Below, piece by piece: positions 58,087-61,823 of a stretch of 64,000 nt of DNA; the first letter of the stretch is position 1; every line of letters starts with the position of its first letter. The notes beneath the pieces are model-generated. The model did not search any database. It was not told where the DNA came from and saw only the letters and a program-made list of their open reading frames with translations. The position numbers and the translations under genes are program-made. Where the stretch lies: NCBI GenBank assembly GCA_016936555.1, contig JAFGXR010000108.1, positions 62,001-126,000 on the forward strand, read 5' to 3'. This DNA is from Spirochaetales bacterium. GTDB lineage: Bacteria; Spirochaetota; Spirochaetia; DSM-2461.

Positions 58087-60492
58087 TTGAGGTTCGGAAA
58101 ATACATCGTTACTCTATTCTCAGCCTTTCTCTTAAGCATGCCCTTATGGGGAGAAGAGCCCTTCCGCGTTCTGCTTTTGAATTCCTATCATAAAGGCTAT
58201 CAATGGACAGATGAAATCACCAGGGGGATAGAAGATACATTCCGCGGTGAAGATGTGGATCTTCATGTGGAATACCTCGATACGAAACGTTTTTTCGACG
58301 ATCCCTATTTCGACCATCTTTCCGGACTCCTCGCCCTGAAGCACAGCTCCTACTCCTATAACGCAGTCATTGCCTCCGATAATAACGCCTTTAACTTCTT
58401 CCGCGAAAAGGGAGCCGGTATTTTCGGAGAGGTGCTTTTCTTTTTCTGCGGATACAATTATCTGAACAGTGATGATCTGGCGGGAATGGAACATGTTACG
58501 GGTGTCAATGAACGGGCCGATATCGAGCGCAATATCAGTCTGATAGAGTCTATCCATAAAGATGCGGATAAGATCCTTATCATTTCCGACGACACGGCAA
58601 CAGGCTTGAAAATCAACAGCGAAGTTGAGCGGATCATGAGCCGCAGGCAAAGCGGCGATACGCCCCTGGAACTCATACACAGCGTTTCCATGGATGATTT
58701 GAGGGAAAGGCTTTCAAATCTGAAAGAGGGAACAATTGTCATACTCACCGTATTTGCCCGAGATGCAAAGGGTGTTTTTTATGAATATGATGAGAACGTT
58801 CGCCTCATTTCCGAAGCCTCGGCGGTTCCCGTTTACGGAACCTGGACATTTCAAATGGGCAACGGTATCGTCGGCGGCTATCTGGTCGATGGCTACCAGC
58901 AGGGGACGGAAGTCGCGGCCATGGCGCTCAAGTCTCATAAAGGTTTGGACATCGGATCAATACCCGTTGAATATGACACCCCGGTTTCTCTTCAATTTGA
59001 TTTCAGGGAACTGGAGCGACGCGGGATCAGCAGCCACTCGCTTCCCGATGATGCCGCTGTGTTCTATCATCCCGACAGTTTCTACGAGCGTTATAAAAAT
59101 ATTCTTATTATGATTAGCGGAGGATTTGTTCTGTTCCTTATTGCTTTTCTGGGTGTTCTCTACGGCTTTATGCTCTCCCGGAGGGCTGAAAGAAAAGTGA
59201 GAATACACGAGAAGGAATTGCTCAGGGAAAAGAACTATGTCCAGCGTATAATCAATAATGCCCCGAGCCTCATCTGCGGGCTCAACAGAGAGGGAATAGT
59301 CGTTTTTATCAATCCGGTTATCGAGAAAATTACCGGATACAGGGAAGAAGAGATTATCGGGAAGAATTTCTGGAAGCTCTTTTATCCCGGCGACGATTTT
59401 GACCAGGTCCGCCGGCTTCTCAAGGATTCGCTGGAGGGGGTCGTCGTCGATTATGAAATGACCCTTACGGCCATAAACGGGGAAAAGCGAACCATCGTCT
59501 GGAACAGTTTTTCACGGAAAGACAACGATGGCGTAATTACAGGATATCTGGGATTCGGCTATGATATTACCCGACTGAAGGAAGCGGAGAACAGCCTCCA
59601 TGAAGCCAACCGGGAACTGACGGATCACAGGGACCACCTGGAAGATCTGGTCGCCGACAGAACCATGGAGCTTCAGATCTCTCTGGAACATCTTCAGCAT
59701 GCTCAGAAAAAGCTTGTGGAAGCGGAAAAAATGGCGGCTCTCGGGGGCCTGGTGGCCGGGGTGGCCCATGAGATCAACACACCGGTGGGGGTCGGTGTTA
59801 CAGCGGCATCCCATCTGGAAGAGGCAGTAAGGGAATTCGACCAGCTCTTTCTGGAAAACAAAGCGTCCAGGCGGGATTTCGAGCGTTTTCTCAAACTCAG
59901 CCGGGAGAGTTCGGCCATGATTCTTTCCAATATGAAAAGGGCTTCCAACCTTATTCACAGCTTCAAGCAGGTGGCTGTGGACCAGTCGAGCCGGGAGATC
60001 AGAACTTTTACGATAAAACAGTATATTGACGAAGTGCTTATGAGCCTTCACGCTCAGCTGCGGCGGACGCCTTTTGAAATCGAAGTCGTCTGTCCCGAAG
60101 ATTTTCAGGTCACCATTTATCCCGGGGCTCTGTCCCAGATCCTGACGAACCTGATCATGAATTCCATAACCCACGGCTTTGAAGAGCGTGAGAGCGGCAG
60201 TATAAAGATCGATATAAAGAAAATCGACGAAAATGTCCTTATCATTTACAGCGATACGGGGAAGGGAATTCCCGAAGACAATCTGAAAAGAATATTCGAT
60301 CCCTTCTTTACGACCAGGCGGGGTTCAGGGGGAAGCGGCCTGGGGATGAATATCGTCTACAATCTGGTAACACAGTCTCTTAACGGGCAGATCAGCTGTA
60401 CCAGTACTGTCGGCGAGGGGACCTGGTTCGAACTCGAGTTTCCGGCAAAGATCGAAGAAAATAAAAGGGGACCGGAGTCCCCTTCGTCCTAG
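58087..60492 (+). CDS. Orphan sensor histidine kinase with ABC-substrate-binding-like domain and PAS
   Basis: 801 residues from TTG 58087, 5 bp after AAGGAG. A signal/anchor segment is followed by a periplasmic two-lobe domain (~25-330: 'RVLLLNSYHKGYQWTDEITR', 'LHVEYLDTKRFFDDPYF') resembling ABC_sub_bind sensor regions. A transmembrane helix (~340-362) and a PAS domain (~385-500) follow. The HisKA-like domain has H561 in 'GVAHEINTPVGVGVTAASH', and the ATPase domain has 'NLIMNSITHGFEE' and 'GSGGSGLGMNIV'. No response regulator is adjacent. A GGGGAC-CGGA-GTCCCC hairpin (60467-60482) overlaps the last codons but lacks a T-run. Confidence 0.9.
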   Translation: MRFGKYIVTLFSAFLLSMPLWGEEPFRVLLLNSYHKGYQWTDEITRGIEDTFRGEDVDLHVEYLDTKRFFDDPYFDHLSGLLALKHSSYSYNAVIASDNNAFNFFREKGAGIFGEVLFFFCGYNYLNSDDLAGMEHVTGVNERADIERNISLIESIHKDADKILIISDDTATGLKINSEVERIMSRRQSGDTPLELIHSVSMDDLRERLSNLKEGTIVILTVFARDAKGVFYEYDENVRLISEASAVPVYGTWTFQMGNGIVGGYLVDGYQQGTEVAAMALKSHKGLDIGSIPVEYDTPVSLQFDFRELERRGISSHSLPDDAAVFYHPDSFYERYKNILIMISGGFVLFLIAFLGVLYGFMLSRRAERKVRIHEKELLREKNYVQRIINNAPSLICGLNREGIVVFINPVIEKITGYREEEIIGKNFWKLFYPGDDFDQVRRLLKDSLEGVVVDYEMTLTAINGEKRTIVWNSFSRKDNDGVITGYLGFGYDITRLKEAENSLHEANRELTDHRDHLEDLVADRTMELQISLEHLQHAQKKLVEAEKMAALGGLVAGVAHEINTPVGVGVTAASHLEEAVREFDQLFLENKASRRDFERFLKLSRESSAMILSNMKRASNLIHSFKQVAVDQSSREIRTFTIKQYIDEVLMSLHAQLRRTPFEIEVVCPEDFQVTIYPGALSQILTNLIMNSITHGFEERESGSIKIDIKKIDENVLIIYSDTGKGIPEDNLKRIFDPFFTTRRGSGGSGLGMNIVYNLVTQSLNGQISCTSTVGEGTWFELEFPAKIEENKRGPESPSS

Positions 60493-60743
60493 GCGGTTTT
60501 ACCCGCCGCATTAATGTCAATCATCAATCACCTCCCCGCCGGTCCTGCACCGGATGCAAAACGGCTTCCTGTTCTTTTCCGGTATCCTAACCATAGCCCC
60601 CCGGAAGGGTTCGGCGAAAGGGAAAGTTTAATTTTATTAGATTTTTATTGGTAAAGTTTGTTATAATCGATCTTTCTCTTTTACAAATCTTTTTCAATGC
60701 ACTATAGTAGTTAGTAATCTATTCACTAATGGAGGTTTATTAA
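60493..60743. promoter_or_regulatory. Non-coding upstream region with promoter and dyad
   Basis: Nothing coding was recognised. Near the 3' end, TTACAA (60681-60686), a 16-bp spacer and TATAGT (60703-60708) form a plausible promoter. The dyad TTAGTAATCTATTCACTAA (60711-60729) covers the expected transcription start, as a repressor site would. A second TATAAT lies at 60662-60667. GGAGG at ~60731 precedes a short leader frame. Confidence 0.5.
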
Positions 60744-60800
60744 ATGATCATTACTCGAATAAAAGTAGCTACTGCGCAGGTATGGATCTGCCTGTCCTGA
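60744..60800 (+). CDS. Putative 18-residue leader peptide
   Basis: ATG with GGAGG 8 bp upstream encodes MIITRIKVATAQVWICLS and stops inside the 5' arm of a long hairpin. It lies between a predicted promoter and the CD3324-like gene. The good ribosome-binding site and the stop position within the hairpin suggest translation-dependent folding, but no run of one regulatory codon is evident. It could also be a chance frame. Confidence 0.45.
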   Translation: MIITRIKVATAQVWICLS

Positions 60801-60853
60801 AAAGGAAAGGTTAATAGTAAACTTTTCACCTATCCTCATTCAGGTCAAGGCAG
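60788..60853 (+). promoter_or_regulatory. Long leader hairpin upstream of the CD3324-like gene
   Basis: The outer stem pairs CTGCCT (60788-60793) with AGGCAG (60848-60853) and CCTGAA (60796-60801) with TTCAGG (60839-60844). The inner stem pairs AGGAAAGGT (60803-60811) with ACCTATCCT (60828-60836), with one mismatch. It ends ~20 bp before the ribosome-binding site of the next gene. There is no T-run, so it is not a simple terminator. Confidence 0.6.
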
Positions 60854-60885
60854 TCGCTTTTGTGATTAAAAATGAGGAAAACAAA

Positions 60886-61170
60886 ATGTCATACATAAAA
60901 GCGGAAGAACATCTTCCGGCTGAACTAATCCGAGAGATACAGAAGTATGTCCAGGGTGCGCAAATTTATATTCCCGGCGTGGCGGATCAGCGTCTGTCCT
61001 GGGGGGAAAAGAACGGCACCAGGGAGAAACTCGAGCACCGGAACAACTCCATTCGCGAAATGAAGAGCTCCGGATGGAAAATCGACGATCTCGCCGACCA
61101 CTTCAATCTTTCGTCCGACAGCATCAGGAAAATTCTCTACAAGCGATCCGGTGAGCGGAAAGCTTCATAG
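60886..61170 (+). CDS. CD3324-family small DNA-binding protein (Mor-like)
   Basis: 94 residues from ATG 60886 (TGAGGAAAAC upstream); the GTG at 60862 is less well placed. 'LIREIQKYVQGAQIYIP', 'WGEKNGTREKLEHRN' and the C-terminal helix-turn-helix 'IDDLADHFNLSSDSIRKILY' match the CD3324-like/Mor activator-like family of Firmicutes and spirochaetes, whose targets are largely unknown. It is preceded by the leader peptide and hairpin described separately, which implies post-transcriptional control. Confidence 0.8.
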   Translation: MSYIKAEEHLPAELIREIQKYVQGAQIYIPGVADQRLSWGEKNGTREKLEHRNNSIREMKSSGWKIDDLADHFNLSSDSIRKILYKRSGERKAS

Positions 61171-61186
61171 AAGAAACGGAGTTCAT

Positions 61187-61203
61187 TTACATTTGGTTCA
61201 CAT
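61187..61203 (+). promoter_or_regulatory. Direct repeat upstream of the Met/Gly-rich protein gene
   Basis: TTACAT (61187-61192) and TCACAT (61198-61203) lie 11 bp apart, one helical turn, as expected for OmpR/PhoB-type half-sites. An OmpR-type regulator is encoded 0.7 kb downstream. Short motifs, so only suggestive. Confidence 0.3.
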
Positions 61204-61250
61204 TTTCCGGTTAATTTCTGAATCAGAGATTAACCATGAAGGAGTTTCAA

Positions 61251-61823
61251 ATGAAAAAAGAGCTACTTGTATTACTGATGTTGGCAAGCTCGGTTGTTTT
61301 TATAGCAGCTGAAGGGAAACAGGATGATGATGACGTTCAGTTCTATGGCAGGGGCCCCGGAATGATGGGCGGATACCGATACAGCAATGAAGATTCTGAA
61401 AAGTGGATTGAGGAAAGAGACGCCGCCAGGCAGGAATACCTCGATTCGCAGGAAATGGTATCGGTCTCCGGGGCTCTATCACTTATCAACGGAGAACTCC
61501 CTTTCATCGAAAGTGAAGGGATAAAATACACCATAATGGCCCCCTGGGCTTACCTTGACGATCTGGAACTGACTGACGGATTGGTAGTTTCTGTCGAAGG
61601 GTATCTTATGCCGGGACCTCCCATGCAGTGGGATAATTCGGAGAAAGGACTTATGGTAACCAAAGCCCTTATCAACGGAGAAGAAATCGAAATCGATCAC
61701 CCTGTGGACGGATACGCCTATGGCGGCCCTATGGGCGGAAGAGGCGGTTTTGATCCTATGGGCGGACGGGGCGGACGCGGTTCAAGAGGCGGCGCCATGA
61801 TGGGCGGTCCCCGGTTTCAGTAA
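61251..61823 (+). CDS. Met/Gly-rich secreted protein
   Basis: 190 residues from ATG 61251 (AAGGAG 7 bp upstream; the ATG at 61236 overlaps that site). The signal peptide ends at IAAEG. Near the mature N-terminus lies 'GRGPGMMGGYRY', and the C-terminal ~35 residues are Gly/Arg/Met-rich ('GGPMGGRGGFDPMGGRGGRG'). Between them lies a small beta-rich domain (~residues 60-150, 'VSVSGALSLINGELPFIESE'). No family was recognised. It is followed by a terminator and an OmpR-type two-component system whose kinase has a similar Met/Gly-rich loop in its sensor domain. Metal binding is a possibility, not a finding. Confidence 0.75.
   Translation: MKKELLVLLMLASSVVFIAAEGKQDDDDVQFYGRGPGMMGGYRYSNEDSEKWIEERDAARQEYLDSQEMVSVSGALSLINGELPFIESEGIKYTIMAPWAYLDDLELTDGLVVSVEGYLMPGPPMQWDNSEKGLMVTKALINGEEIEIDHPVDGYAYGGPMGGRGGFDPMGGRGGRGSRGGAMMGGPRFQ

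Follow-up and report, generated by a model that had tools for sequence, protein, structure and literature searches.

A 142-nt leader precedes the CD3324-family gene of a Spirochaetales bacterium and is probably a translation attenuator of the ermC/fusB type, controlling the synthesis of a small helix-turn-helix (HTH) regulator. The locus lies in a genome of 4.73 Mb, within the window (the whole stretch of 64,000 nucleotides that was analyzed), and the leader and hairpin first noticed upstream of the gene by inspection of the sequence are confirmed as real. The in silico support covers the leader open reading frame (ORF), the hairpin, the complementarity between an anti-Shine–Dalgarno (anti-SD) element and the SD of the gene, the mutual exclusion of the two structures, the extent to which they are conserved, and the way in which the switch works according to folding. 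Conservation was assessed in 26 genomes of the window's taxonomic family, 8 of which, spread over three genera, carry the CD3324 gene (hereafter family loci).

The CD3324-family gene and its genomic context

The gene (60886–61170, plus strand) encodes a 94-residue protein that scores 97.2 bits against the CD3324 model NF040785, for which the curated cut-off is 65 bits. Its start was placed at ATG 60886 because the N-terminal MSY... is conserved in 8/8 family loci, which also rules out the mechanically assigned start at GTG 60862. Similarity to Mor, the activator of phage Mu (PF08765), is weak (22.2 bits, below the gathering cut-off of 24.9). A phage origin of the gene was rejected, with 0 matches in 50,697 phage records; the 5 plasmid records with a CD3324 match are all from Bacillota. 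The AlphaFold model of the protein (mean pLDDT 74.2, pTM 0.45) contains three C-terminal helices (residues 46–61, 66–73, and 77–85; local pLDDT near 90), which, as modeled, are consistent with an HTH. Foldseek yielded no fold match at E ≤ 0.001, and a sequence search against solved structures returned one match to the HTH part, a chain named CAP REPEAT (E 7.1e-10), which we do not trust. DNA binding by this protein is therefore putative. Among the matches listed in a literature search, in which subscription journals and preprints were mostly outside coverage, none concerned the CD3324 family by title or abstract; the papers containing the name “CD3324” have titles on nematode diagnostics.

The genes around CD3324 differ between the genera of the window's family, one genus having chorismate mutase-like and trehalase-like genes downstream, so what is conserved as a unit appears to be the gene together with its leader. 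In the window's genus, CD3324 has as a conserved neighbor a gene (61236–61823 in the window) for a secreted-looking protein with a C-terminus rich in glycine, methionine, and arginine, to which Pfam and NCBIfam gave no match.

Promoter region and leader ORF

Three boxes on the plus strand, GGGAAAGTTTA (60620–60630), GGTAAAGTTTG (60650–60660), and CTTTCTCTTTTAC (60672–60684), are conserved in the upstream regions of the 8 family loci. They consist of repeated GGGAAAG/GGTAAAG and inverted CTTTCTC/CTTTACC motifs lying upstream of and overlapping the −35 hexamer and, judging from the sequence, form a candidate operator that perhaps mediates autoregulation. The sigma-70-like promoter itself, TTTACA-17-TATAGT (60680–60708, plus strand), scored 10/12 in a pattern scan that is weak (1 found versus 1.9 expected by shuffling), and family relatives carry similar hexamers at the same place. 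A repressor-like dyad (TTAGT...ACTAA, approximately 60712–60730), to which the sequence-only reading had drawn attention, proved not to be conserved, being weakened in locus L003 and lost in L004.

Downstream of the promoter, on the same strand, a GGAGG SD (60731–60735; duplex energy −10.5 kcal/mol) precedes an 18-codon ORF, MIITRIKVATAQVWICLS (60744–60800), which starts at ATG 60744, ends with UGA at 60798–60800, and is presumably translated. A translation attenuator is expected to have a short leader ORF preceded by a strong SD, and 8/8 family loci have one upstream of the gene; these leaders are 18–23 codons long, and the duplex energies of their SDs lie between −9.3 and −10.7 kcal/mol. When leader ORFs were counted as those with a strong SD and an end 45–215 nt upstream of the gene, all 8 family loci qualified, compared with 5% of 80 shuffles and 22/323 control upstream regions, the latter taken from other ORFs of at least 150 residues in the same loci. 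The peptide sequence drifts between the genera, and no specific arrest motif is visible because the sequence is not conserved among them. The leader region is single-copy in the genome, and an origin from a repeat family was discarded on this ground.

A stable hairpin around the leader stop codon

The end of the leader ORF is embedded in a 66-nt hairpin (60788–60853, plus strand) composed of the stems P1 (CUGCC/GGCAG), P2 (CCUGAA/UUCAGG), and P3 (AGGA/UCCU), followed by a short stem, AGGU/ACCU. Its 5′ arm, which we call segment 2 (60788–60806), comprises P1 (60788–60792), P2 (60796–60801), and P3 (60803–60806) and holds the leader stop codon in the P2 arm; its 3′ arm, segment 3 (60833–60853), comprises P3′ (60833–60836), P2′ (60839–60844), and P1′ (60849–60853). 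With 6 nt added per side, the minimum free energy is −30.0 kcal/mol versus −15.1 (sd 2.9) for dinucleotide shuffles, with 0/300 as stable (z −5.1); the longer stretch 60709–60890 is less extreme (z −2.14, 4/200 shuffles). These results bear out the sequence-only reading of an 18-codon frame with GGAGG that terminates within the 5′ arm of a hairpin of about 66 nt; the three stems of 6, 6, and 8 bp that it proposed come close to the computed fold.

All 8 family loci retain the leader ORF with its strong SD as well as a hairpin around the leader end, the stems of which differ in sequence between genera. The hairpin z-scores range from −3.4 to −6.2 in the 7 family loci folded, L005 having been left out owing to a loop insertion, and the whole-leader z-scores in all 8 range from −1.2 to −3.8. 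The insertion in the L005 hairpin loop measures approximately 110 nt, and both arms are intact. Two genera share a P1 of CUGC(C)/(G)GCAG. For P2, the window's genus has CCUGAA/UUCAGG, L006 has CCUGAUUA/UAAUCAGG, and L007–L009 have GGACCGC/GCAGUCC with one C-A mismatch, and P3 takes the forms AGGA/UCCU, GGGG/CCCU, and GAGGAG/CUCCUC across the three genera. Arms were compared by pattern in six loci and by eye from the sequence in L005 and L006, the latter also from its fold. RNAalifold recovered only 4 pairs from each of two MAFFT alignments and missed the hairpin because MAFFT misaligns the arms of different genera; covariation, proposed earlier as a check on the hairpin, is therefore seen in the arm-by-arm comparison by hand rather than in a formal test.

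A predicted anti-SD element that may couple the hairpin to the start of the gene

Segment 3 begins with an anti-SD, UCCUCAUU (60833–60840, plus strand), complementary to segment 4, as we call the stretch AAUGAGGA (60871–60878, plus strand) that forms the CD3324 gene's SD region; the duplex has an energy of −12.5 kcal/mol, matched by 0/200 shuffles. In 8/8 family loci, the strongest duplex that the hairpin region forms with the gene's SD region involves this same element (−10.0 to −12.7 kcal/mol), and the two partners change in step between genera: the window's genus has UCCUCAUU/AAUGAGGA, where L004 shows a G-U pair and L005 a 6-bp core; L007–L009 have UCCUCAUA/UAUGAGGA; and L006 pairs CCUCAUAUAA with UUAUAUCGAGG, with one bulge. 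Shuffles giving a duplex as strong numbered 0, 2, 32, 28, 24, 3, 14, and 6 of 200 in the 8 loci (window first); taken singly, the duplexes of L004, L005, and L006 (32, 28, and 24) are thus not rare. As the anti-SD shares nucleotides with P3′ and the beginning of P2′, the hairpin and the SD pairing are mutually exclusive, and folding thus yields the two alternative structures of an attenuator, one of which sequesters the gene SD. This anti-SD/SD helix, which the sequence-only reading had not named, gives attenuation an explicit mechanism and, together with the conservation, supports the attenuation geometry which that reading had put forward.

To assess the effect of ribosome position, we folded the RNA that stays unoccupied when a ribosome sits at approximately codon 5 or at the leader stop. 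Predicted SD accessibility in the window is 0.77 with the ribosome early in the leader and 0.18 with the ribosome at the stop, and the corresponding values in the other seven loci are 0.78/0.18, 0.74/0.04, 0.36/0.15, 0.69/0.27, 0.59/0.18, 0.44/0.18, and 0.61/0.18, the SD being more open upon early stalling in 8/8 loci. Differences as large were found in 0, 0, 0, 7, 0, 0, 2, and 3 of 150 shuffled leaders (window first), tests that are not independent because the loci are related. When the ribosome is stalled early, the hairpin state of the free RNA is preferred to forced SD pairing by 3.8–8.1 kcal/mol in 7/8 loci, and the preference is gone in L005 (ddG 0.0). An additional 7-bp pairing emerges when the 5′ part is folded alone: segment 1, GCAGGUA (60776–60782, plus strand), would pair in the nascent RNA with UGCCUGU (60789–60795), which is part of segment 2. 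It is found in 4/4 loci of the window's genus and 0/4 other family loci, and in the window's genus it completes the ermC topology, in which 1:2 and 3:4 compete with 2:3.

In the mechanism that we propose, segment 2, in which the leader ORF ends with its stop codon, would be able to pair with segment 3, the anti-SD of which could alternatively pair with segment 4. Ribosomes reaching the leader stop would cover segment 2, leaving segment 3 to pair with the SD and keeping the regulator off, and ribosomes that stall or move slowly upstream of the hairpin, or are not loaded, would permit the 2:3 hairpin, which frees the SD and turns the regulator on. The signal would presumably be stalling on the leader, brought about by a ribosome-targeting antibiotic, amino acid shortage, or a general slow-down of translation, and the CD3324 product may, by analogy with WhiB7 in actinobacteria, activate a translation-stress response.

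Alternative readings of the leader

Transcription attenuation of the WhiB7 or trp type, with leader translation choosing between a terminator and an antiterminator, has a precedent in whiB7/wblC (PMC11550727), where completing the upstream ORF (uORF) likewise means off and the product is a regulator. We consider it unlikely here, as the plus strand of 60000–61600 contains no intrinsic terminator-like site of the kind used in WhiB7-type control, no U run follows the hairpin, and the conserved element is an anti-SD in place of a terminator. Terminator-based attenuation was rejected given the first of these results, which concerns terminators of the intrinsic kind and with which Rho-dependent termination stays compatible. 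The repeated codons for one amino acid that characterize trp/his attenuators are absent from the leader peptides of the 8 family loci.

Leader ORFs upstream of genes can also act by simple translational coupling, whereby ribosomes terminating on the leader would open or feed the gene start and leader translation would mean on. The SD openness predicted for RNA free of any ribosome, 0.77 in the window and 0.18–0.63 in the other seven family loci, varies such that the ground state may differ among them, and the partly free SD of L004, L005, L006, and L009 (0.18–0.40) would suit coupling. The reading is nonetheless improbable: the gene starts 73–202 nt from the leader stop across the loci, which is far for reinitiation, and a ribosome at the leader stop is predicted to leave the SD more closed, not more open.

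A stable, conserved hairpin in the 5′ untranslated region might equally belong to a riboswitch, a T-box, or a protein-binding element, the leader ORF being incidental. Rfam gave 0 matches at gathering in the window, and the weak matches of a local search are of other kinds (microRNA and mitochondrial rRNA); in 20 related loci it gave 3 matches (T-box, tRNA, and PreQ1), none of them inside a CD3324 leader. A riboswitch or T-box identity was accordingly rejected, the earlier statement that no RNA element is described for this family agrees with the absence of Rfam matches in the leaders, and the strong-SD leader ORF kept in every family locus speaks against an incidental frame, all of which makes this reading quite improbable. 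That the leader arose by chance and the structure affects only mRNA stability, a notion to which the drift of the peptide sequence lends itself, is highly implausible, given that the family loci retain the frame, SD, and hairpin and that leaders occur in several other lineages.

CD3324 leaders in other Spirochaetota and in Bacillota

We collected 165 loci, 162 of which have a CD3324 hit, representing 129 distinct upstream regions; the counts exclude one locus with a partial hit (L044). A leader ORF with a strong SD is present at 13/26 CD3324 loci from other Spirochaetota and at 65/94 from Bacillota, and the corresponding shuffle rates are 7.7% and 9.3% (5.0% for the window's family). Some of the misses are threshold effects, as L012, L072, and L120 have visible leaders, and some of the passes, namely the short GTG/TTG frames of L020, L022, and L023, are possible chance matches. 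Within one spirochaete family (f25), L013, L015, and L017 have no recognizable strong leader ORF and L010, L011, and L016 have a weak one; such a leader is missing from several Treponema-like CD3324 genes. When the ribosome-position test was applied to 11 other Spirochaetota loci, the accessibility difference was matched by at most 5 of 150 shuffles in L030, L031, L032, L039, and L019 and by more than 5 in L042, L043, L037, L012, L018, and L010.

Leaders of Bacilli, Paenibacillus, Clostridium, and some Lachnospiraceae contain AUGCAAAGYC or a close form of it, with the potential to pair with a GRCUUUGC-like sequence that lies downstream beside an anti-SD. The frame in which the motif is read varies (HAKP or MQS), an indication that selection acts on the RNA rather than on the peptide. 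It is strongly conserved in Bacillota leaders (L052–L165), with no Rfam match in the leaders tested. For the class I element in Bacilli, 95.3% paired was obtained versus 94.9% in shuffles, counts that say little because the element is nearly invariant there. A second form, UGCAUAGCAAAGGCUAUUGCA, is common to Lachnospiraceae and, with small changes, the spirochaete loci L012, L018, and L040. No switch direction is claimed for these two forms because the SD is predicted to be closed in most states of their folds.

A FusB/EF-G-binding-like gene stands beside CD3324 in many Bacilli loci (L138–L165 and L056–L062). Of 93 Bacillota loci examined, 26, all from Bacilli, have such a relative downstream of CD3324; 25 of the 26 genes start 247–626 nt after the CD3324 start, and the two members checked match PF07299 and PF16571. 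Other downstream genes encode chloramphenicol phosphotransferase-like and APH-like proteins (one locus each checked), an RNHCP protein, a DUF1062 protein, an ABC transporter, and an alpha/beta hydrolase. The downstream genes lend partial support to a link between CD3324 and translation stress in Bacilli, a link that we do not extend to the window's family because a FusB homologue was found in 0/26 genomes there.

Tentatively, CD3324 proteins could be widespread, hitherto undescribed translation-stress regulators of Spirochaetota and Bacillota, each with its own leader-peptide attenuator. At least 3 unrelated RNA forms would follow the same logic: that of the window, AUGCAAAGYC in Bacilli, Clostridium, and Lachnospiraceae, and UGCAUAGCAAAGGCUAUUGCA in Lachnospiraceae and one spirochaete family. 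They would constitute a translation-level counterpart of WhiB7, accompanied in Bacilli by a gene for EF-G rescue; we know of no WhiB7 from these phyla. If this holds, the uncharacterized CD3324 family gains a testable role in reporting ribosome stalling, and a simple reporter of translation stress becomes available for spirochaetes and Gram-positive bacteria.

Comparison with known systems

Translation attenuators described so far mostly have resistance enzymes or pumps as their targets; the attenuator considered here appears to switch a regulator. It resembles those of ermC and ermB in having a leader ORF and pairing segments that free or sequester the gene SD depending on the position of the leader ribosome, with stalling as the inducer (related abstract, PMC11264731). 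It differs from them in controlling a small putative HTH regulator instead of a resistance enzyme, in the absence of a conserved arrest peptide, and in having the 1:2 pairing only in the window's genus. In the fusB attenuator (PMC3352095), an alternative mRNA structure forms when ribosomes stall on the leader, a stall dependence proposed here as well, and Bacilli have a FusB-like gene downstream of CD3324; there, however, the resistance gene itself is attenuated, whereas the window's family has no FusB homologue in its 26 genomes.

In whiB7/wblC (PMC11550727), a uORF keeps the gene off when its translation is completed and turns it on when translation is disturbed, the product being a transcription factor. 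The off/on logic and the regulator as output are thus alike, whereas control is exerted there by an intrinsic terminator and here by predicted SD sequestration, in other phyla and with an unrelated protein. The uORFC-6-1 motif upstream of hflX in Bacillales (PMC8632094) is likewise a structured element with a uORF and has been put forward as a sensor of ribosome stalling, but it precedes another gene, has a conserved Arg-Leu-Arg peptide motif, and is suggested to affect transcription. The class of mechanism is already known from ermC and fusB and, as regards its logic with a regulator as output, from whiB7/wblC; the present case stands apart in the gene that is controlled, in the phylum, and in drawing on RNA forms that are unrelated.
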